Origin: an uncultured Lachnospiraceae bacterium
Lineage (GTDB): Bacteria > Bacillota > Clostridia > Lachnospirales > Lachnospiraceae
Direction: 5' to 3'
Assembly (NCBI GenBank): GCA_946407725.1
Contig: CAMJPM010000021.1
Coordinates: 1-40,968 of the forward strand
Length of the DNA: 40,968 nucleotides
In this document: positions 1 to 40,968 of the stretch, one piece after another
Position numbering within the stretch: position 1 is the stretch's first letter
How the letters are laid out: each line of letters starts with the position of its first letter
The notes under the pieces: generated by a model
The model's input: only the letters and a program-made list of their open reading frames with translations
What the model was told of the DNA's origin: nothing
Database searches by the model: none
Program-made: the position numbers and the translations under genes

Positions 1-2729
1 AGGAAGAGGAGCAGAAGAGGCAGGAAGAGGAGCAGAAGAGGCAGGAAGAGGAGCAAAATCCTCCGGAAGAAGAACAAAATCCGCAGGAAGAAGAACAGAA
101 AAAACAGGAAGAAGAACAGAAAAAACAGGAAGAAGAACAGAAAAAACAGGAAGAAGAGCGGAAAAAGCAGGAAGAAGAGCAGAAAAAGCAGGAAGAAGAG
201 CAGAAAAAACAGGAAGAGGAACAGAAGGTAACAAAGATCACCGTTGACAATGATGTTATAAGCTTCGGGACAATAAAGGCAGGAGAAAGCCCCAGACCGG
301 TGAGCTTTGTGATAAATAACGCAGGAAATACTGAAGTATCCATAGGATGGAGTCAGACGGATTCTACCGGAGCTTTTATACTTAATATGCCCTCAAATGT
401 CAGTATCCCTCTGAAGGCGGGAAGCAGCTTGCAGGGCAGTGTGGAAACCACAGGAAAGGATCTTGCGCCCGGAGACTATTCCACGACGCTGGTATTTACG
501 GATCTTAACGGCCATGAAGCAAAAGCCACCATAAATGTGTCGCTTAGAGTGGAAAAGGCAGGTCCTGTTATTAACAAGGTAAAGATAAGGCCAGGCAGTG
601 TTGATGTAAGACAGGGCGATGAAGCTGAGTTTACCGCAGATGTTGAGGGAGAGAACGATCCCGATACGTCGGTTACATGGAAGGTACAGGGGAACTCTTC
701 CTCTGATACATGGATATCCGACGGGGGAACGCTCCATATATCAAATGACGAGACGGCGTCTTCACTGACGGTAGTGGCTGTTTCTAAACAGAATGAGAAT
801 TTCAAGGATACCGCTTCAGCTTATATCTCCAAGGGCAAGTATATCGTCAATGCCTTTGTGGAGCCCTCCGACGCCGGATACGTAAACGGCAAGGGATCCT
901 TCACCGGCGGTGAGCGTACAACTCTTACGGCGGTTGCGGAAAAGGGCTATAGGTTCAAGGAGTGGAAAGACAGCGATAATAATCATGTGAGTGACAGCGC
1001 ATCCTTTACCACGGATAAGATCACCTCCGATCTCACTTATAAAGCTGTTTTCACCCAGTCCGAGTATGAGATAAAGGTAAAGTCTTCAAATAAGGACATG
1101 GGAACAGTCAAGGGTGGTGGTTATGTGGACAGTGGAGACAGCGTCGTCATAGAGGCAATACCGAATGACGGGTATGATTTTGAAGGCTGGTATGAAAAGG
1201 ACAAGCTGGTAAGCGAGGATAAAAAGCTAAAGATAAAGGATGTCAAGAAGAGCCATGTGTTCGTGGCCGAGTTTAAGAAGAACAAGTATGTGGTCACCGT
1301 ATCCGCAGCACCATCAGAGGGCGGAAAAGTAAGCGGCGGAGGAAACTATAAGGGAGGCGATGAGGTAAATTTAAATGCCACACCTTCAAAGGGATATCTC
1401 TTTAAGGGATATGTTTTAAATAACCAGGTGATATCCACCTCAACCTCCTACAAGATAAAGAAGCTGGACAGAGACCTCAGTATATTGGCATATTTTGAAA
1501 AGGAAGGCGCGGTAAACCATACCATTAAATCCGGAGTTGCCAATTCCGGCGGAGTTATCCTTCCTTCAGGAGAGATCTCAATTGCGGACGGCAGCAGCAT
1601 CACATATTCCATAGCACCGGACAACGGTTACGGGATACTGATGGTTTCCGTGGACGGAAAGCAGATAGGAGCTTATTCCTCATTTACCTTTGAGAATATA
1701 AGAGAAGACCACACGATCTCCGTGGCCTTTGCTCCCAAGGAGAATTCCGTAAACAATGTAAAGATGTCGAAGATCATAAGCGTTAAGGAAGCCGATGCCA
1801 TAGCGGTGGCAAAGCTTAAAAAGGCAAAGGCTGACGAAGAAAAGATCGTTTCAAAGGTCATTACTCCTGAAATGTTTCTGGCCATGCAGGAAGAGGAGGC
1901 TAAAGAGAAGGAAGGCGACACTGAGACTATAGTGGTGCCGCAGGAGCAGAACCTTGTAGGCATGGATGATACAGAGAATCTTGAGGATGTGGTGAAGGAA
2001 TACAATCCCGACACTGCAGTGGGAGTTTACCAGTCTCTGGATATCACAAAAGAAACCGCGGAAAAGCTTATAGACAGCGGCGGAGACGCCATTCTCCTAA
2101 ATGAAGCATACGAGCTGGGATACCTGGATGTACTCATAAACAATGAGTATGTAACCCCCGGAAAAGAGGGGGAGATCCAGGGCCTTGAAAACGACACCAC
2201 TGTAAAGAACCTCCAGGAAGTCATAAAATCCTGCCTTACAAGGGAAGAAAAGCTTATGATGATGGAGGGGAAGGAAATAGTATTCTCCTTTACCATATCC
2301 GGAGCGGAGAATCCCGGAGAATTCGAAAAGGAAGCCATGAAGGGCGCAAAGGGTGTAAGTGTGGACCGTTACCTCTACATGACACTTATAAAGTCTGTTG
2401 ACGGCGTGCCTTCCCTTGTGGAAGAGCTTGAGACTCCCATGCAGATAACCCTTCTTATTCCGGAGGATTTAAGGGAAAAGGATAAGAACAGCAAATTCTG
2501 TATCATAAGGAACCATAACGGAGAGGTGGATGTGCTGGAGGATATGGATGATGATCCCGATACGGTGACCATTATGACCGACAGGTTTTCACCCTATGCC
2601 ATCGGGCATTTCTCCGGAGAGAATAACAGGATAATATTTATTGTATTTTTTGCAGGGATTGCGCTGACAATTCTCACAGTGTTTACGTATATAAATATGA
2701 AAGACAGAAAGAAAAGAAGGAAAGCCTGA
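1..2729 (+). CDS. Surface protein with heptad repeat, InlB-like repeats and C-terminal TM anchor (5' end outside window)
   Basis: The reading frame is open from base 3 to the TGA at 2727-2729, so the gene starts before the window; a GTG at 300 is internal. It begins with about ten copies of a 7-residue E/Q/K unit (EEEQKKQ and variants), a likely rigid coiled coil. Next come two Ig-like beta domains (about bases 230-560 and 570-830) and four divergent InlB-type repeats (about 830-1740), each with a G-Y-x-F/I core. A charged, mostly helical region of about 300 residues follows. The end is a hydrophobic helix (about 2626-2690) followed by KDRKKRRKA, a typical stop-transfer anchor; no LPxTG sorting motif is seen. 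The build suggests a cell-surface adhesin or stalk protein held in the membrane. The ligand is unknown. The next large gene also carries InlB-type repeats, so the two may be functionally paired (inference). Confidence 0.85.
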   Translation, partial: EEEQKRQEEEQKRQEEEQNPPEEEQNPQEEEQKKQEEEQKKQEEEQKKQEEERKKQEEEQKKQEEEQKKQEEEQKVTKITVDNDVISFGTIKAGESPRPVSFVINNAGNTEVSIGWSQTDSTGAFILNMPSNVSIPLKAGSSLQGSVETTGKDLAPGDYSTTLVFTDLNGHEAKATINVSLRVEKAGPVINKVKIRPGSVDVRQGDEAEFTADVEGENDPDTSVTWKVQGNSSSDTWISDGGTLHISNDETASSLTVVAVSKQNENFKDTASAYISKGKYIVNAFVEPSDAGYVNGKGSFTGGERTTLTAVAEKGYRFKEWKDSDNNHVSDSASFTTDKITSDLTYKAVFTQSEYEIKVKSSNKDMGTVKGGGYVDSGDSVVIEAIPNDGYDFEGWYEKDKLVSEDKKLKIKDVKKSHVFVAEFKKNKYVVTVSAAPSEGGKVSGGGNYKGGDEVNLNATPSKGYLFKGYVLNNQVISTSTSYKIKKLDRDLSILAYFEKEGAVNHTIKSGVANSGGVILPSGEISIADGSSITYSIAPDNGYGILMVSVDGKQIGAYSSFTFENIREDHTISVAFAPKENSVNNVKMSKIISVKEADAIAVAKLKKAKADEEKIVSKVITPEMFLAMQEEEAKEKEGDTETIVVPQEQNLVGMDDTENLEDVVKEYNPDTAVGVYQSLDITKETAEKLIDSGGDAILLNEAYELGYLDVLINNEYVTPGKEGEIQGLENDTTVKNLQEVIKSCLTREEKLMMMEGKEIVFSFTISGAENPGEFEKEAMKGAKGVSVDRYLYMTLIKSVDGVPSLVEELETPMQITLLIPEDLREKDKNSKFCIIRNHNGEVDVLEDMDDDPDTVTIMTDRFSPYAIGHFSGENNRIIFIVFFAGIALTILTVFTYINMKDRKKRRKA
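3..227 (+). repeat. 21-bp tandem repeat coding EEEQKKQ heptads
   Basis: About ten in-frame 21-bp units encode E-E-E-Q-K-K-Q or close variants (K-R-Q, N-P-P, N-P-Q, R-K-K-Q). The array probably continues left of the window. The units differ mostly at third positions and at residues 5-7. Exact 21-bp periodicity makes copy number prone to slippage, so the length of this stalk may vary between strains (inference). Confidence 0.85.
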
Positions 2730-2777
2730 AGCAAATTATAAATGGAGCGGCTCTCAGAATACTAAGGAGGTCAGAAA

Positions 2778-3065
2778 ATGGTGAAATTGTTTGATGATGA
2801 ACTTTCAAATGTTTCCGGAGGTGTAATGCAGGCAAATAAGGATCTGGATACCTATGGAAAGAGTATACAGTGTCCCAACGGAGCCTGCGGAGGAACGATC
2901 ATGGATACAGTATACAAGGATACAAAAGAGGGTTTTGAAAGCGAACTTTATATGTGTACCTGCGGTGCCAAGTTTGTGGTATATAAGAACAGGGTCATCA
3001 TGAGGGATAACTGGACAGCAGAGTGCAAGAAGTATAAATATGATTACATCTATGCCAATGTCTGA
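2778..3065 (+). CDS. Small protein with double-glycine leader and Cys-pair (zinc-ribbon-like) body
   Basis: This 95-residue protein starts at an ATG with a strong AAGGAGG site 9 bases upstream. Its first 15 residues, ending DDELSNVSGG, match the double-glycine leader of bacteriocins and other peptides exported by C39-peptidase ABC transporters (E-L-x-x-V-x-G-G). The body is not a short toxin: it has Cys32 and Cys37, then Cys60 and Cys62, which can form a zinc ribbon, plus Cys83 and a Lys/Tyr-rich tail. It lies 48 bases after the surface protein gene and upstream of an ECF sigma factor; a second protein of the same build follows that sigma gene. No transporter or maturase is visible in the window. 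It could be an exported or modified peptide, or an intracellular zinc-ribbon protein with a leader-like start. The family is not recognised and the function is unknown. Confidence 0.8.
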   Translation: MVKLFDDELSNVSGGVMQANKDLDTYGKSIQCPNGACGGTIMDTVYKDTKEGFESELYMCTCGAKFVVYKNRVIMRDNWTAECKKYKYDYIYANV

Positions 3066-3114
3066 AATATCCCGGCAAGGGGAGAAGCTGATTTAACCGG
3101 CATCAAGTGAGTTG

Positions 3115-3258
3115 CAATTCAGCGGACTGACAGGCTGCTGAATTGTGACAACACTCTTGACGTGATTTGGATTTTTCCTGTAAACTGTGACAGAAAGCAT
3201 TGTGATGAATGCCATCAGAGGCTGATGGCATTTATTGAATACAGGGGTATTGTCACAG
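3115..3258 (+). promoter_or_regulatory. Structured intergenic region before the ECF sigma gene
   Basis: The 215-base gap between the first Cys-pair peptide and the sigma gene holds three dyads. CAATTCAGC (3115-3123) pairs with 3137-3145. An 11-bp perfect hairpin with a 3-base loop lies at 3208-3232, followed by TATTG, which is a poor U-tract for a terminator. CTGTGACA (3185-3192) pairs with TGTCACAG (3251-3258) and encloses that hairpin. A possible promoter is TTGACG (3157-3162), 18 bases, then TAAACT (3181-3186). Together this could be a terminator followed by a regulated promoter for the sigma operon; the roles are inferred. Confidence 0.45.
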
Positions 3259-3280
3259 ACCCTTTACAGGATGGAACAAA

Positions 3281-3748
3281 ATGGATATAGAGACGATCTA
3301 CAGGGAGTATCACGACAAACTCCTTTCGTATATCAGGTATAAGGTCAACAATGAGGAGGACGCAGAGGATATCTGTTCCGAGGTCTTTATAAAGGTTCAG
3401 AAGAACCTCCATAAATATGAAGAGGAAAAGGCCTCTGTAGCCCGCTGGATATATGTGATAGCCGGTAATACCATAATAGATTATTACCGTTCAAGAAAGG
3501 TAAATGAAGAGATCCCGGAGGATCTGCCATCAGAAAGCGACCTGGAGGACGCAACACTTAACCGGATCACATGCGGAAATTTGGCATCCGCATTAAAGGA
3601 ACTGTCGGAAGAGGAAAGGCTTGTGATAATACTCCACTACTACGAGGATATGAGTTTAAAGGATATTGAACGTAAGACAGGGCTGTCCTACGGGCAGGTA
3701 AAGATAAGACATAACAGTGCGCTGAAGGTACTTCGTAAGCTGTTGTAA
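3281..3748 (+). CDS. ECF-type RNA polymerase sigma factor
   Basis: A 155-residue sigma-70 family protein of ECF layout. Region 2 is residues about 1-70, with the typical Y-x-x-Y/H-x-x-L-L-x-Y start, the E-D-A-E-D-I-x-x-E-V-F motif and R-W-I-Y-x-I-A-G-N-x-x-I-D-Y-Y-R-S. Region 4 is residues about 100-155, with L-S-E-E-E-R and the L-K-D-I-E-R-K-T-G-L-S-Y-G-Q-V-K-I-R helix-turn-helix. No anti-sigma factor or extra C-terminal domain is encoded next to it. The gene for a double-glycine-like Cys-rich small protein begins 14 bases after its stop, so the two are almost certainly cotranscribed. The context suggests it controls the peptide pair and perhaps the surface protein genes on either side (inference). 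Confidence 0.92.
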   Translation: MDIETIYREYHDKLLSYIRYKVNNEEDAEDICSEVFIKVQKNLHKYEEEKASVARWIYVIAGNTIIDYYRSRKVNEEIPEDLPSESDLEDATLNRITCGNLASALKELSEEERLVIILHYYEDMSLKDIERKTGLSYGQVKIRHNSALKVLRKLL

Positions 3749-3762
3749 GGAAAGGTTCGGAT

Positions 3763-4053
3763 ATGGCGAATGAAGCTATTGAGAAAAAACTGAAATTCAT
3801 ATTCGGATTCCAGAGATTTGTACAGGATCCGGAATTGAAAGAGATCATTGAAGAAACTGAGAACAACATGGAATTATTCAGGCTTTCTGACGTTGATTTA
3901 TTCAGTGTTTCGGCCGGCGCGGATACAGAGAACAGCTACGTTTTCGGGAGTTGTCCTAATTGCGGACAAAACTGCAAACAGTATTTTGCACCGGGCAGCC
4001 CTGAATTGCTGACATGCTCAAATTGCAGCCACCAGTATAGTGTTCCTGGCTGA
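3763..4053 (+). CDS. Nif11-like leader protein with C-terminal zinc ribbon
   Basis: A 96-residue protein with its ATG behind an AAGGAAAGG site. Residues 1-50 are helical and resemble Nif11-type leaders: an F-x-x-F-V-x-D-P-E-L-K-E-I-I core, then L-S-D-V-D-L-F-S-V-S-A-G-A, which sits where the L-x-x-V-x-G-G cleavage motif of natural-product precursors would be. The remaining ~43 residues hold Cys64-x2-Cys67 and Cys85-x2-Cys88 with extra Cys71 and His90, a clear zinc-ribbon arrangement. It is 14 bases downstream of the ECF sigma gene. Together with the 95-residue protein upstream it makes a pair built as leader plus Cys-pair body. Whether it is cleaved, exported, modified or stays in the cell cannot be told from sequence. 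Confidence 0.8.
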   Translation: MANEAIEKKLKFIFGFQRFVQDPELKEIIEETENNMELFRLSDVDLFSVSAGADTENSYVFGSCPNCGQNCKQYFAPGSPELLTCSNCSHQYSVPG

Positions 4054-4107
4054 GAACCGATTTCGATTTCCAATTTCCAATTTTTTAAAATTTCTTAAAA
4101 TTTACTC

Positions 4108-4162
4108 TTGATTTTTAAAAGGGATTGTGATATGTTCTTTTGACATAACACGAATCCCTTTT
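4108..4162 (+). promoter_or_regulatory. Possible promoter with overlapping long dyad upstream of the giant surface protein
   Basis: The gap 4054-4373 (320 bases) has no gene. It contains TTGATT (4108-4113), 17 bases, then TATGTT (4131-4136), a fair promoter. Overlapping it is an inverted repeat: AAAAGGGATT (4117-4126) pairs perfectly with 4153-4162, and the arms continue inward to about 18 bp with one bulge and one mismatch. The dyad spans the -10 region and the predicted start point, so it could be an operator. It could instead be a terminator for the zinc-ribbon gene, but the run after it is only CCCTTTTACG. The rest of the leader has a weaker hairpin (GCAAAA/TTTTGC, 4208-4226). I found no known riboswitch there. 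Confidence 0.4.
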
Positions 4163-4373
4163 ACGTTTACGAAAAAACAGTTTCAAGGATTCATATCAAT
4201 AAAAAATTGCAAAAGTTCTTTTTGCAGTATTTCTCACAAAAAACAAAACAGAGGAAAGCAGTGGTATTTTTTGCTGTCCTGATCCCGGGGATTTTTGTTT
4301 AAACGTAAACGGGGGGATGCGGACAGACAGGATAACGCCATTTGCCTTTCCTTAGATCAGGGAGGAAAGCTCT

Positions 4374-7300
4374 ATGGTAAAAAACAAATGCAGGTTTATG
4401 TATGGTTTTCTTTTTGCGCTCTGTATGGCATTAATCACGCCTGCGCAGATCTGTGCATCGGCGATGACAACAGCGGCGGAGCAGGAAGAAACAGACTCCG
4501 GGACGGAAATGACCGGAAGTGAAAACAGTGTAAATCAAGTGGATATCAGCACCCTTACCAACAGTCCGTCGGAGGATGCGCTAAAGGCGGAATTCTACGG
4601 GGCAGAATCAGGCGTGGAATATATGCCTTCACTGCTTCCTGACGGGAGTTATGGAATGGTAAAGGGGCAGAAGTGGTTTGCGGGAACCGGAACCACATCA
4701 TCCGACAAAAAGGTACTAAAGGTTAATAACAAGGGAATAGTAATGGCCAGAAGATCCGGTACCGCAGAACTCACGGTATACGGGGCAAAGTACAGGGTCA
4801 TCGTTTCAGAACCCGCATTGTCTAAAAAGACTCTGAAAATGAATGTGGGAGATACCGAGACAGTCTCTTTAAACGGACTCTGTGAGACCCAGAAGCTCTC
4901 ATGGCTATCAGGCAGGGGGGATGTGGCACAGGTACATAACGGAAAGATATATGCCGTCGGTGTGGGGAGCACAAAGGTTTATGCCTGCAGCGGAGGTAAA
5001 AAATATGCAGTTTCCGTTAAGGTAAAGGAAAAGCCGGGCACCACCTGCATAATGGATGTTCCGGTGTCAAAGAAGACAAAGATACGGCTTAAGGATGCAA
5101 AAAATACTAAATGGTCCTCCTCGGGAAACGCGGTAAGCGTGGAAAACGGAAAGGTAAAGGCCGCTTCCCCGGGAATGTATACTATAAGGGATCTCTCCGG
5201 AAACAGTATCAGGGTTTACGCAAATGACCCCGCACCGGATCCGGGAACGGGGCTTTTTGAAACCGGCAGGGATAACCGGTATGCAGTAAAGCTGAAGACC
5301 GGTGAAAGGCTTTTTGTGAACTTTCCAAACTCCCATGAGTGTCCGCTATGGAAGGCATCTTCCCCTTGGGTGGCTGCAATGGACAATTACGGGATAATCT
5401 ATGCAGACGCCCCCGGAAATACCAGGCTTTCGGCAAAAACAGCCGGTAAAAAGATCGTGATAGATGTGACGGTGGGAAGCGAGAGCACAAAGGTCAGCAA
5501 CAGAGTGAAAGTAAAGAAGCAGGTAGTAGACAATATAAACGGAACAGGAGGTGTATATGTCACTGTCAGTCCGGATACCGGAAGAATACAGGAAACAAAG
5601 GGAAACGGAAAGGATGATCCAAAGAAGAACGGGAGAAATCCTGAGGGTACGTCAGAAAACAGTATATCGGGAAAATCTGAAGAATACCAGGATAATGAGG
5701 CTGCAGAGAAACAGGAAAATGAAGTGAGCACCGGCGGTGAAGAAATAGAAGCTGAGGACGGTGGAAAACCTGATGAGGGCAGCACAGTAAGTGATGGCAG
5801 TACAGGCAGTGAGAGCAGCACAGTAAGTGATGACAGTACAGGCAGTGAAGGCAGCACAGGCAGTGAGGGCAGCACAGTAAGTGATGACAGTACAGGCAGT
5901 GAGAGCAGCGCAGGCAGTAATGGCAGCGGAAAATCTGATGACGGCAGTGCTGGCAGTGACAGCGGAAATACCGGTAACGTAAGCGGAGGAGGAACCGAAA
6001 CAGCTGACAACGGAAACAGCGGTAACGGAGATAAGGCCGGAGCAGAAAACGGAACACAGACAAGTGACAGCGGAAATACCGGTAACGTAAGCGGAGGAGG
6101 AACCGAAGCAGGAGATAACGGAAACAGCGGTAAGGGAAACAGAGGAGGAGCTGAAGCAGGAGATAACGGAAATACCGGTAACGGAGATAAGGATGGAGAG
6201 GGAACCGGAACAGATAACGATAACGGGAATGAAAACGAAAACGGCGGAAAGGCTGCTGAAAGAAGTATTACAGTCACCTTCGATACCTGCGGAGGAAGCG
6301 CCGTAGAGGAGCAGAGTGTATGTTTTGCGGGTAAAGCCGCAAGACCCGAAGACCCGGTTAAAGACCACTATGATTTTGCAGGATGGTATAAGGGAGATTA
6401 TCTATATGATTTTGACAATGCCCTGGCAGAGAATATAACCCTTACCGCCCACTGGGATAAAAAGACCTATCTGATTTCTCTTGACCCCTGCGGAGGCATC
6501 TTAAATGAGTCCGGAATAAAAAGGATATTCGGGGAAAAGGTGGGGGATCTGCCCGCACCGGAAAGGGAGCATTATATTTTTGACGGCTGGTACACGGCAC
6601 CATCTGCCGGAGCCAGGCTGGATAATGAGCTGACAGTGGACAGGGATATGGAGATATACGCCCACTGGACAAAAAAAGCCTATACCGTAAGCTTTAATGC
6701 CAAAGGCGGGAACTGCAGTACCGAAAGAATAAGCGTTTTTTACGGGGAAACATACGGGATACTGCCTGTTCCGGTGAAAAAAGGCTACAATTTTAAGGGA
6801 TGGTATTCGGATGAAGCATACGGAACAGAGATCAAGTCTTCAACTACAGTGGATTTTACGGGAAGCATAATGCTCTACGCCCTGTGGAACCCGAAAGACA
6901 TAAAGGTCACCTTTAACGCAAACGGCGGAAGTATCACCGAAAAAGAGAGAATTGTCAAATACATGGAAAAGTATGGGATCCTTCCCACTCCCACAAGGAC
7001 GGGCCACACCTTCACCGGCTGGTATACTTCGGCTTCCGGAGGCACTGCAGCAGATAAAAATGACGAAATGACATCGGATAGCAATATCACGCTGTATGCC
7101 CACTGGAAAGCAAACAGCTACAATGTGAAATTTGAGCCCAACGGTGGAACCTGTTCCACTTACTGTGTGGAGGTAAAATACGGAGAGAATTACGGCACCA
7201 TGCCGGCACCTTCAAGGACAGGATATACTTTCAGCGGCTGGTATACGGCAGCTTCCGGAGGTAAAGCGGTTCAGCCTTCCACGGTGGTGGGCATTACCGA

Positions 7301-9296
7301 GGATCAGACCCTCTACGCCAGATGGACAGCAAATACCTATAAGGTCACCTTTAACGCAAACGGCGGAACCTGCGGCGAAAGCACGAGAAACGTGACCTAT
7401 ACATCAAAGTACGGCACTATGCCGACACCTTCAAGGACAGGATATACCTTTAAGGGATGGTTCACAGAAAAGTCGGGGGGAAGCCAGGTTAAAGCCGAAA
7501 CAAAAGTATCAATTCTTGCGAACCAGACACTTTACGCCTCCTGGAACGCAAACGTCTATGATATCAAATTTGATGCCAACGGGGGAAGCTGTAAGATAAC
7601 TTCCCAGAAAGCAACCTACGGACAGAAGTACGGAAATCTTCCAACACCCACACGTGCAGGCTACAGCTTCAGTGGCTGGTATACCACTAAAGCTTCAGGC
7701 GGAAGTCTTGTAAACGCTTCCACAGTGGTTTCGGTTGCAGCTGCCCAGACACTTTACGCGAGATGGAACATAAACAGCTATACCGTCACCTTTAACGCAA
7801 ACGGCGGAACCTGCAGCGAAAGCACGAGAAAAGTGACCTATGCATCAAAGTACGGCACTATGCCGACACCTTCAAGGACAGGATATACCTTTAAGGGATG
7901 GTTCACAGAAAAGTCGGGGGGAAGCCAGGTTAAAGCCGAAACAAAAGCAGCCATTCTTGCGGACCAGACGCTTTACGCCTCCTGGGGTGCGAACGTTTAT
8001 GATATCATATTTGACGCCAATGGGGGAAGCTGTAAGATAATTTCCCAGAAAGTAACCTACGGACAGAAGTACGGAAGCCTTCCCACACCTACACGAACAG
8101 GCTACAGCTTCAGTGGCTGGTATACCGCTAAAGCTTCAGGCGGAAGTCTTGTAAACGCTTCCAAAGTGGTTTCGGTTGCAGCTACCCAGACACTTTATGC
8201 GAGATGGAACATAAACAGCTATACCGTCACCTTTAACGCAAACGGCGGAACCTGCAGCGAAAGCACGAGAAAAGTGACCTATGCATCAAAGTACGGCACT
8301 ATGCCGACACCTTCAAGGACAGGATATACCTTTAAGGGATGGTTCACAGAAAAGTCGGGGGGAAGCCAGGTCAAAGCCGAAACAAAAGTATCCATCCTTG
8401 CGAACCAGACGCTTTACGCTTCCTGGAGTGCGAACGTTTATGATATCAAATTTGACGCCAACGGGGGAAGCTGTAAGATATCTTCCCAGAAAGCAACCTA
8501 CGGACAGAAGTACGGAAGCCTTCCTACACCTACACGAACAGGCTACAGCTTCAGTGGCTGGTATACCGCTAAAGCTTCGGGCGGAAGTCTTGTAAACGCT
8601 TCCACGGTGGTTTCTGTGACAGCTGCCCAGACACTTTATGCGAGATGGAGCATAAACAGCTACACCGTGACCTTTAATGCCAACGGGGGAAGCTGTGGCA
8701 CCAAAACCCAGACAGTGGTATATAACAGCACATACGGAAAACTGCCTGCTGCAGAAAGGGAGGGCTATACATTTGGCGGATGGTATAGCGATAAAAACTA
8801 CAGGCAGAAGGTATCAGCAGGTGATAAGGTGACCATAACAGCAAACCAGACCCTGTACGCAAAGTGGACACTGTACTCATACGTGCTGAAATGGTCATCA
8901 CCACTGGCAAAGGTAGGGAAATTCCTGGGAACCAACGGAGCCGCTTCCTCCACCAGAGGCTGGAAGCGCATAAAATACACGGATCCCAAAGGAAATATAG
9001 TCTATACCGACCCCTATAAATCATCGGGAAGGATCGAGGTAAAACCCGGCACCACTGTGTACCTGGAGGCCATATCGGGAGATTCGCCCGACCCTGGTCA
9101 TTTTTACTCGGACATCACATGGTATGCTGATGGCAGCAAGGCCATAGGTAATGATTTTAACAGCCATGGAAGCCATCAGCTTGTTTCCTCCCATTATGCC
9201 CCCCATGTATCCGGCACCTTACGATGTGCAGAGGACAGATGGGCATCGGATGACAACGGAAAGCTGAATTTCTGGTGGCACGTGGAGTTCTGTTAA
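4374..9296 (+). CDS. Giant secreted InlB-repeat surface protein
   Basis: 1640 residues, starting at an ATG with GGAGGAAAG upstream. Residues 1-30 are a signal peptide (charged start, hydrophobic core, A-S-A cleavage-like end). Residues about 60-390 form bacterial Ig-like (BIG2-type) domains with V-x-x-G-x-x-x-V-x-A patterns. Residues about 460-630 are a low-complexity linker rich in Ser, Gly, Asp, Asn and Thr. Residues about 630-1500 are 12 InlB B-repeats (Listeria-Bacteroides repeat family): V-T-F-x-x-N-G-G, then Y-G-x-x-P-x-P-x-R-x-G-Y-x-F-x-G-W-Y/F, then L-Y-A-x-W. Repeats 6-11 are three near-identical pairs. The last ~145 residues are a unique domain ending W-H-V-E-F-C. No LPxTG, TM anchor or SLH domain is seen, so attachment must be by another route. 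Most repeats carry a cysteine just after the N-G-G motif, unusual for a secreted Gram-positive protein. A terminator hairpin follows at 9344-9375. Confidence 0.9.
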   Translation: MVKNKCRFMYGFLFALCMALITPAQICASAMTTAAEQEETDSGTEMTGSENSVNQVDISTLTNSPSEDALKAEFYGAESGVEYMPSLLPDGSYGMVKGQKWFAGTGTTSSDKKVLKVNNKGIVMARRSGTAELTVYGAKYRVIVSEPALSKKTLKMNVGDTETVSLNGLCETQKLSWLSGRGDVAQVHNGKIYAVGVGSTKVYACSGGKKYAVSVKVKEKPGTTCIMDVPVSKKTKIRLKDAKNTKWSSSGNAVSVENGKVKAASPGMYTIRDLSGNSIRVYANDPAPDPGTGLFETGRDNRYAVKLKTGERLFVNFPNSHECPLWKASSPWVAAMDNYGIIYADAPGNTRLSAKTAGKKIVIDVTVGSESTKVSNRVKVKKQVVDNINGTGGVYVTVSPDTGRIQETKGNGKDDPKKNGRNPEGTSENSISGKSEEYQDNEAAEKQENEVSTGGEEIEAEDGGKPDEGSTVSDGSTGSESSTVSDDSTGSEGSTGSEGSTVSDDSTGSESSAGSNGSGKSDDGSAGSDSGNTGNVSGGGTETADNGNSGNGDKAGAENGTQTSDSGNTGNVSGGGTEAGDNGNSGKGNRGGAEAGDNGNTGNGDKDGEGTGTDNDNGNENENGGKAAERSITVTFDTCGGSAVEEQSVCFAGKAARPEDPVKDHYDFAGWYKGDYLYDFDNALAENITLTAHWDKKTYLISLDPCGGILNESGIKRIFGEKVGDLPAPEREHYIFDGWYTAPSAGARLDNELTVDRDMEIYAHWTKKAYTVSFNAKGGNCSTERISVFYGETYGILPVPVKKGYNFKGWYSDEAYGTEIKSSTTVDFTGSIMLYALWNPKDIKVTFNANGGSITEKERIVKYMEKYGILPTPTRTGHTFTGWYTSASGGTAADKNDEMTSDSNITLYAHWKANSYNVKFEPNGGTCSTYCVEVKYGENYGTMPAPSRTGYTFSGWYTAASGGKAVQPSTVVGITEDQTLYARWTANTYKVTFNANGGTCGESTRNVTYTSKYGTMPTPSRTGYTFKGWFTEKSGGSQVKAETKVSILANQTLYASWNANVYDIKFDANGGSCKITSQKATYGQKYGNLPTPTRAGYSFSGWYTTKASGGSLVNASTVVSVAAAQTLYARWNINSYTVTFNANGGTCSESTRKVTYASKYGTMPTPSRTGYTFKGWFTEKSGGSQVKAETKAAILADQTLYASWGANVYDIIFDANGGSCKIISQKVTYGQKYGSLPTPTRTGYSFSGWYTAKASGGSLVNASKVVSVAATQTLYARWNINSYTVTFNANGGTCSESTRKVTYASKYGTMPTPSRTGYTFKGWFTEKSGGSQVKAETKVSILANQTLYASWSANVYDIKFDANGGSCKISSQKATYGQKYGSLPTPTRTGYSFSGWYTAKASGGSLVNASTVVSVTAAQTLYARWSINSYTVTFNANGGSCGTKTQTVVYNSTYGKLPAAEREGYTFGGWYSDKNYRQKVSAGDKVTITANQTLYAKWTLYSYVLKWSSPLAKVGKFLGTNGAASSTRGWKRIKYTDPKGNIVYTDPYKSSGRIEVKPGTTVYLEAISGDSPDPGHFYSDITWYADGSKAIGNDFNSHGSHQLVSSHYAPHVSGTLRCAEDRWASDDNGKLNFWWHVEFC
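5770..6250 (+). repeat. Low-complexity Ser/Gly/Asp coding linker
   Basis: Short imperfect repeats encode units such as S-T-V-S-D-D-S-T-G-S-E and S-G-N-T-G-N-V-S-G-G-G-T-E. At the DNA level the sub-repeats are AGYRGCAGYRCAGGCAGTG-like, and a segment near 5955-6000 recurs at 6065-6105. The segment separates the Ig-like domains from the InlB repeats and should be an extended, disordered spacer. It produces long open frames on the opposite strand that have no independent support. Confidence 0.7.
7335..8657 (+). repeat. Three tandem 441-bp copies within the InlB repeat region
   Basis: Matching points recur exactly 441 bases apart: the segment coding M-P-T-P-S-R-T-G-Y-T-F-K-G-W-F is at 7420, 7861 and 8302. 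Each 441-bp unit codes two different InlB repeats (147 residues), so repeats 6/7, 8/9 and 10/11 are higher-order copies. The copies differ at only a few positions, pointing to recent duplication or ongoing gene conversion, while the flanking repeats 1-5 and 12 are divergent. Confidence 0.9.
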
Positions 9297-40872: not shown

Positions 40873-40915
40873 AATTTTTGCGTCACATCTTAAAAGTGAA
40901 CGTGGCGGCCCTGAA

Positions 40916-40968
40916 CGGGGTGTGGCTCAGTTTGGCTAGAGCGCCTGGTTTGGGACCAGGAGGTCGCA
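40916..40968 (+). tRNA. tRNA-Pro (UGG anticodon), 3' part outside window
   Basis: The acceptor strand CGGGGTG (40916-40922), D stem GCTC/GAGC with loop AGTTTGGCTA, and anticodon stem CCTGG/CCAGG are present. The 7-base loop TTTGGGA has anticodon TGG at 40951-40953 with G37 after it, as in bacterial tRNA-Pro. The window ends after the variable loop, so the T arm and acceptor 3' strand cannot be checked. Confidence 0.92.

Follow-up and report, generated by a model that had tools for sequence, protein, structure and literature searches.

A leader-bearing small protein linked to an ECF sigma factor in a putative NHLM-type export locus of Lachnospiraceae

FlgM is an anti-sigma28 factor tied to flagellar secretion, and NepR and CnrY are class II domains of soluble ECF anti-sigma factors. 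FlgM provides a precedent for an inhibitor whose fate is tied to secretion (PMC6978683). Anti-sigma factors usually lie near their own ECF gene, soluble ones exist and are hard to find by sequence, and for some ECF sigma factors no regulator can be recognised in the neighbourhood (PMC8103513). NHLM exporters have been described together with RiPP precursors (PMC2887384). For the C39 peptidase domain of LahT, Leu at −12, Leu at −7 and Val, Ile or Leu (or Thr) at −4 of the leader are important, changes at Glu −8, Glu −5 and Ala −3 are tolerated, cleavage occurs after GG, GA and GS, and just the last 13 leader residues are required (PMC6363468).

The stretch of DNA analysed here (the window) is contig C21, 40,968 bp in length, of an uncultured Lachnospiraceae genome (G000; 3.28 Mb, 98% complete). 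Its first genes encode two small proteins, which with their homologues we call FAM1 and FAM2, and two large ones, SURF1 and SURF2, around a sigma factor (Table 1). A preliminary description had reported an ECF sigma factor flanked by two leader-bearing small proteins, 14 bases from the second and with no visible anti-sigma factor. This was borne out: the three open reading frames lie where it placed them, the sigma stop and FAM2 start are exactly 14 bases apart, and inspection of open reading frames around positions 2600–4500 revealed none resembling an anti-sigma factor. The middle frame matches Pfam Sigma70_r2 (E 4e-17) and Sigma70_r4 (E 1e-11), so that one short protein combines the two sigma70 regions (2 and 4) characteristic of ECF sigma factors. 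Both promoter-like hexamers in front of it are identical in three species (G000, G007 and G015), and a promoter scan also recovers this pair, its three matches in the region being at chance level; the sigma gene appears to be preceded by a conserved promoter of ordinary type in these species. The order FAM1–sigma–FAM2 recurs in G007 and also in G015, where a contig break interrupts it, with SURF2 after FAM2 in all three genomes, and a Lachnospiraceae MAG from roe deer rumen (JAFVEU010000153.1) encodes the same FAM2 protein as G007. SURF1 ends in a hydrophobic helix with a basic tail (hydropathy), and its C-terminal part is 76% identical to the SURF1 of locus L054. At its other end (40900–40968) the window seems to break off within what looks by eye like a tRNA with a TGG loop; ARAGORN reports none.

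Table 1 Features of the locus within the window.
Feature	Position	Strand	Basis or detail
SURF1, large and apparently secreted protein (3′ part)	1..2729	+	Pfam Flg_new_2, InlB-type repeats
FAM1, 95 aa, predicted exported small protein	2778..3065	+	C39 motif LFDDELSNVSGG
FAM1 leader, residues 1–15, ending G14-G15	2778..2822	+	C39 motif
Promoter-like TTGACG-N18-TAAACT in front of sigma	3157..3186	+	Hexamer conservation
Group-I ECF sigma factor, 155 aa	3281..3748	+	Pfam Sigma70_r2, r4
FAM2, 96 aa	3763..4053	+	Predicted helices 3–21, 23–35; C39 motif 41–52; Cys-pair core 53–96
FAM2 leader, 52 aa, ending A51-G52	3763..3918	+	C39-type motif
SURF2, 1640 aa, InlB/List_Bact_rpt protein	4374..9296	+	Pfam

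Three C39 matches occur in the window genome, and the linked C39-peptidase ABC transporter that the preliminary description had proposed to seek was found on the neighbouring contig C132 (L094). This contig encodes, in order, a HlyD-like protein, an ABC protein with a C39 domain (ABC1), a second ABC protein (ABC2), a double-glycine (GG) peptide and the beginning of a protein that looks secreted and whose repeat continues into the first bases of the window; the 5′ end of SURF1 appears to lie here. Over 39 bases, which fall within a 21-base repeat, the two contig ends are identical, and a 36-base pattern of the repeat, with up to three mismatches allowed, is absent from all other contigs of the genome. 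In so repetitive a sequence the overlap by itself is weak evidence; the putative join is based on the 39-bp end overlap together with synteny in L054 and L055. The order from the HlyD-like gene to FAM1 lies on a single contig in L054, L069 (G005), L070 (G027) and L072 (G025), and in the relative G015 one contig holds HlyD–ABC1–ABC2–GG peptide–SURF1–FAM1 while another starts with sigma–FAM2–SURF2. ABC1 (TIGR03796) scores 911.5 bits against a cut-off of 853.3 and ABC2 (TIGR03797) 723.9 against 709.4, and the C39 domain aligns with that of LahT at 249 bits over 144 aa; the HlyD-like protein (TIGR03794; 160 aa) stays below its cut-off, with 43.9 against 156.2 bits over profile positions 1–65 only. 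These data are best explained if the window holds the right half of an NHLM-type locus, exporting through a C39 peptidase ABC exporter, with the predicted full order HlyD-like–ABC1(C39)–ABC2–GG peptide–SURF1–FAM1–sigma–FAM2–SURF2. The window genome has a second NHLM C39 exporter gene, split over three open reading frames (L092, G000:C67, 3166–5359) and adjoined by a divergent FAM1-like GG peptide (5613–5978), and in L243 (G019:C54) a single NHLM exporter lies among three FAM1-like GG small proteins and an ECF sigma.

Single-sequence searches of 99 genomes retrieved FAM1 from 21 and FAM2 from 22, all of one genus. FAM1 (L4-FDD-E8-L9-SN-V12-S-G14-G15) has every residue expected of a C39 substrate (Leu −12, Leu −7, Val/Ile/Leu −4 and G/A/S −1), and FAM2 (L41-SDV-D45-L46-FS-V49-S-A51-G52) has the same residues with Ala in place of Gly at −2, where cleavability is a prediction; homologues have sites such as LSDDELENISGG. 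The strict motif was kept in 24 of 25 FAM1 rows, the single miss being an L052 copy without leader retained in the alignment, compared with 4 of 99 other small open reading frames (all four further GG peptides by eye), 1 of the N-termini of 287 larger proteins and 0.4% of shuffled sequences. Just 3 of 24 FAM2 proteins keep the strict form, while a relaxed form, which admits further residues at −4, Ala at −2 and G/A/S at −1, fits all 24, including four with Ala-Ala, compared with 10 of 99 small frames, 45 of 287 larger proteins and 4% of shuffles; a FAM2 match with internal stops (L086, G019:C119) was excluded from this alignment. The predicted C39-type leaders of both families therefore exceed chance, in agreement with the double-glycine-type leaders first noted on both proteins. 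The Nif11-like character first ascribed to the second leader was not upheld, the complete profile lists holding no match of Nif11 or NHLP leader models to either window protein, and none being found among the matches listed for their relatives; the bacteriocin leader model TIGR01847 weakly matches 10 of 25 FAM1 members (best E 0.0011).

The sigma factor is associated with FAM2. Profile searches of 48 genomes of the genus, counting FAM2 where the match took in its own leader (starting at profile position 8 or lower), found sigma in 31 and FAM2 in 28: both occur in 28 genomes, sigma only in 3, FAM2 only in none and neither in 17 (p=3e-10; p=3e-7 within the 38 exporter-bearing genomes). For the 22 genomes at least 90% complete the corresponding figures are 15, 0, 0 and 7. 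An NHLM exporter over cut-off is present in 9 of the 17 genomes with neither gene. The genomes with sigma only (G002, G022 and G026) are all less than 90% complete; since the gene next after sigma in G002 and G022 is a different one (glmM-like by eye), FAM2 is not merely cut off there, and a G026:C64 frame with a variant leader, matched from profile position 15, was not counted. FAM2-profile matches of any kind at E≤0.001 occur in 38 of the 48 genomes, most of them spanning no more than the GG site and the Cys part. Mapped on a SecA tree of 44 genomes, the sigma gene requires 8 gains or losses and FAM2 requires 9, so the pair is not confined to one clade, and by our reading of this tree the negatives among the best genomes represent roughly three or four independent events. 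The co-occurrence is nevertheless inflated, because several of the negative genomes are incomplete and the two genes frequently adjoin; shared absence of neighbouring genes is partly expected in incomplete genomes, and joint transfer can make adjacent genes co-vary.

FAM2 adjoins sigma in 19 of 31 sigma loci, downstream in 17 and upstream in two (L271 and L272), and the run ABC1–ABC2–sigma–FAM2 is found in L230 and L231; among the 12 loci without an adjoining FAM2, L257 and L260 hold another GG peptide in that place. As the window genome has just 9 sigma70 region-2 matches, chance neighbours are unlikely. Sigma and FAM2-leader distances co-vary after removal of SecA distance (partial rho 0.65, p=0.0002, n=26; 0.64 without G004, whose leader was wrongly trimmed), also where the genes are non-adjacent (0.66, p=0.004, n=9), so that FAM2 commonly lies beside the sigma gene and co-evolves with it, as would be expected of an anti-sigma factor. 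The sigma factor and the FAM1 core show no such relation (0.01, p=0.41, n=14), compared with 0.52 for sigma and FAM2 in the same 14 genomes, in which the FAM2 leader and FAM1 core co-vary weakly (0.22, p=0.04). On these patterns sigma and FAM2 belong together as a predicted module.

FAM1 appears to have a different partner. The linkage originally drawn between the sigma factor and the pair of small proteins holds for FAM2, found with sigma in 28 of 28 genomes, but FAM1 lacks a clear tie to sigma (p=0.067 over the 48 genomes, p=0.71 within exporter-bearing ones), and the trio, although kept in the relatives named above, is therefore better described as two modules side by side. For 20 of 25 FAM1 genes the immediate upstream neighbour is SURF1 (the exceptions being in L052, L060, L074, L075 and L092), and the SURF1 C-termini are homologous in all 20 pairs (E 1.1e-11 or better), a pairing from which we infer that SURF1 and FAM1 form an export pair. 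The modules meet repeatedly, since G006, G012 and G029 hold FAM2–SURF1–FAM1 in that order, with sigma in front in G006.

Within FAM2, mean pairwise identity is 51% before the motif, 52% in the C39 motif and 27% in the core (core value from those 190 of the 276 pairs that were comparable). The helices upstream of the motif are thus as conserved as the motif itself, even though the last 13 leader residues suffice for LahT. Of 29 FAM2 proteins, 14 with GG and 5 with AG carry a Cys-rich core, in 7 the site defined by the motif is Ala-Ala, followed by a Cys-free tail of 15–31 residues, and 2 with AG and 1 with GG (G014, its site read by eye as VAGG) lack a Cys-rich core. The seven Ala-Ala forms, among which G031 and G043 are near-copies, keep the helices and the hydrophobic residues at −12, −7 and −4. 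The N-terminal part and the predicted docking residues of FAM2 therefore persist where the putative cargo is lost. In six of the seven a Gly follows at the next residue, which would allow cleavage in a shifted register. A third core type (KAGVxI...DCYxLSGGxxLTDxQLxDLIxQS) was observed in L061 (45–365), L090 (9673–9993), L091 (6347–6709), L235 (6431), L257 (636–905) and L260, on a FAM2 leader in L091 and on short leaders in L061, L090, L257 and L260, which indicates that leaders and cores are swapped. A second FAM2 copy of the window genome (L052, G000:C2, 9370–11452) adjoins a dicarboxylate symporter with a weakly HATPase-like N-terminus, and a similar-looking protein (by eye) follows sigma in G032 (L270). 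Outside the genus, in a goat-rumen Clostridia MAG (L132), a 76 aa protein beginning 223 bases after a sigma homologue combines a C39-type leader (LNEEQLNEAAGG) with a LysM-like core (by eye).

We are fairly confident that FAM1, and the GG peptide beside ABC2, are exported: ABC1 would cut them after Gly-Gly, and FAM1 would be released as a small Cys4 protein, probably metal-binding, that acts outside with the co-encoded SURF1, its presumed partner from the gene pairing. Sigma and FAM2 would form a control module, in which FAM2 holds sigma with its conserved N-terminal helices and offers its C39 motif to the exporter for binding or cleavage, so that sigma activity follows export capacity by a logic like that of FlgM. 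Position, co-occurrence, co-variation and an N-terminal part kept without cargo lead us to see in FAM2 a regulator touching both sigma and exporter. The motif, the linkage, the co-occurrence, the co-variation and the cargo-less FAM2 proteins that keep helices and docking residues are observed; direct binding of sigma by FAM2, its inhibition and its release by the exporter are what we infer from them. Taken as a whole, an NHLM-type locus with FAM1 as cargo and FAM2 binding sigma and docking on the exporter is our preferred reading, held tentatively and at slightly less than even confidence. Several findings count against it, namely the low pTM (0.38) of the FAM2 model, the three genomes with sigma alone and the 12 of 31 sigma loci without a FAM2 neighbour, the displaced Gly in six of seven Ala-Ala forms, the weak FAM2 leader–FAM1 core co-variation and the occurrence near the module in relatives of STAS, SpoIIE-type phosphatase and (by eye) RsbW-like genes. 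The most specific form of this reading makes FAM2 an exporter-sensing anti-sigma factor whose helices bind the ECF sigma and whose tail docks on the C39 domain, exporter availability freeing sigma, with a cargo-less regulator in seven species and a FlgM-like checkpoint on a peptide ABC exporter; we put this forward as an unlikely but specific proposal.

That 19 of 29 FAM2 proteins carry a Cys-rich core behind GG or AG fits FAM2 being merely another exported small protein, with the long leader as an exporter-specific tag and sigma driving FAM2 and other cargo genes. The mixing of leaders and cores agrees with this, as do ECF sigmas of a separate, well supported clade beside NHLM exporters in four further loci (L212, L215, L218 and L243) of a census of 40 exporter loci, 39 of them taken by score order (one already collected was skipped) and G020:C57 chosen separately. 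FAM2, however, follows sigma more closely than it follows the exporter, 7 of 29 members have no cargo, and the leader sequence co-varies with sigma, a relation not required of a gene that only belongs to the regulon; we consider plain cargo a real possibility, if somewhat doubtful. Partner switching, in which an RsbW-like anti-sigma factor, a STAS protein and a SpoIIE phosphatase encoded elsewhere control sigma and FAM2 is a target gene, appears quite improbable. Such genes were seen by Pfam in L084 (STAS and SpoIIE) and L059 (STAS), by eye near FAM2, FAM1 or sigma in L067, L071, L085 and L272, and as HATPase-like proteins (by eye) after sigma relatives in Butyrivibrio FCS014 (L136) and L148, but the four HATPase-like proteins scanned (L084, L067, L085 and L136) gave no Pfam match, none was seen near the window sigma, and the listed loci with such genes are a minority. 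Pfam matches of 24 FAM2 members likewise included no anti-sigma family.

Each core contains two Cys pairs, which are conserved across FAM1 and in most FAM2 proteins, and C32, P33 and C60 are invariant in the FAM1 core (residues 16–95, Cys4). The zinc-ribbon likeness first proposed for them stands as regards the pairs and is weaker as regards FAM1, whose C-x4-C and C-x-C are looser than a classic ribbon. The FAM1 model (pLDDT 80, pTM 0.69) presents the core as a folded domain, for which fold searches gave no convincing match, while the FAM2 model is poorer (pLDDT 74). The FAM1 Cys4 protein probably binds metal, zinc being suggested by the Cys spacing. The cores were also said to be unlike typical bacteriocins, and profile lists for window FAM1 and FAM2 indeed hold no bacteriocin core. 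The RiPP-like system then envisaged, with FAM1 and FAM2 as precursors matured by an unlinked enzyme, would suit the published company of NHLM exporters, but no maturase was recognised by eye in the window, L052–L055 or L094, no LanC-like match occurs in the window genome and the model of the FAM1 core shows a folded domain, so we judge it very improbable. That both are intracellular zinc-ribbon proteins with leader motifs by chance is scarcely credible, despite weak zinc-ribbon Pfam and PDB sequence matches, given how consistently the motif is kept and the exporter in the same locus.

If FAM2 does bind sigma and exporter, leader peptides carry regulation beyond their role as export tags, and cells can couple the expression of an exported set to its pump's state. 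The locus further suggests Cys4 small proteins, rather than modified peptides, as NHLM-type cargo in this Lachnospiraceae genus. With the NHLM/NHLP system (TIGR03794, TIGR03796, TIGR03797; PMC2887384) it shares a C39 ABC1 and an ABC2 over NCBIfam cut-offs and adjacent GG-leader small proteins; it differs in its short HlyD-like protein, in FAM1 and FAM2 matching no NHLP or Nif11 model, in a cargo that looks like a Cys4 small protein and in the ECF sigma, a word (sigma) absent from the available text of that paper. Its C39 domain is close to that of LahT, and LahT and PCAT1 with its substrate CtA (PMC6363468, PMC6959990) are further known counterparts, whose available descriptions contain no comparable regulator; the cargo here is Cys-paired, and FAM1 has 15+80 residues in leader and core compared with 24+66 in CtA. 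The likeness to FlgM is one of proposed logic only, an exporter relieving sigma inhibition, with a flagellar exporter there and an ABC/C39 exporter and ECF sigma here. FAM2 resembles the soluble ECF anti-sigma factors NepR and CnrY in being a short, predicted helical protein beside an ECF gene, a resemblance only, and instead carries a C39 leader motif and often cargo. As a system, the locus is NHLM-type export in a new variant form, and the coupling of sigma to FAM2 is its surprise.
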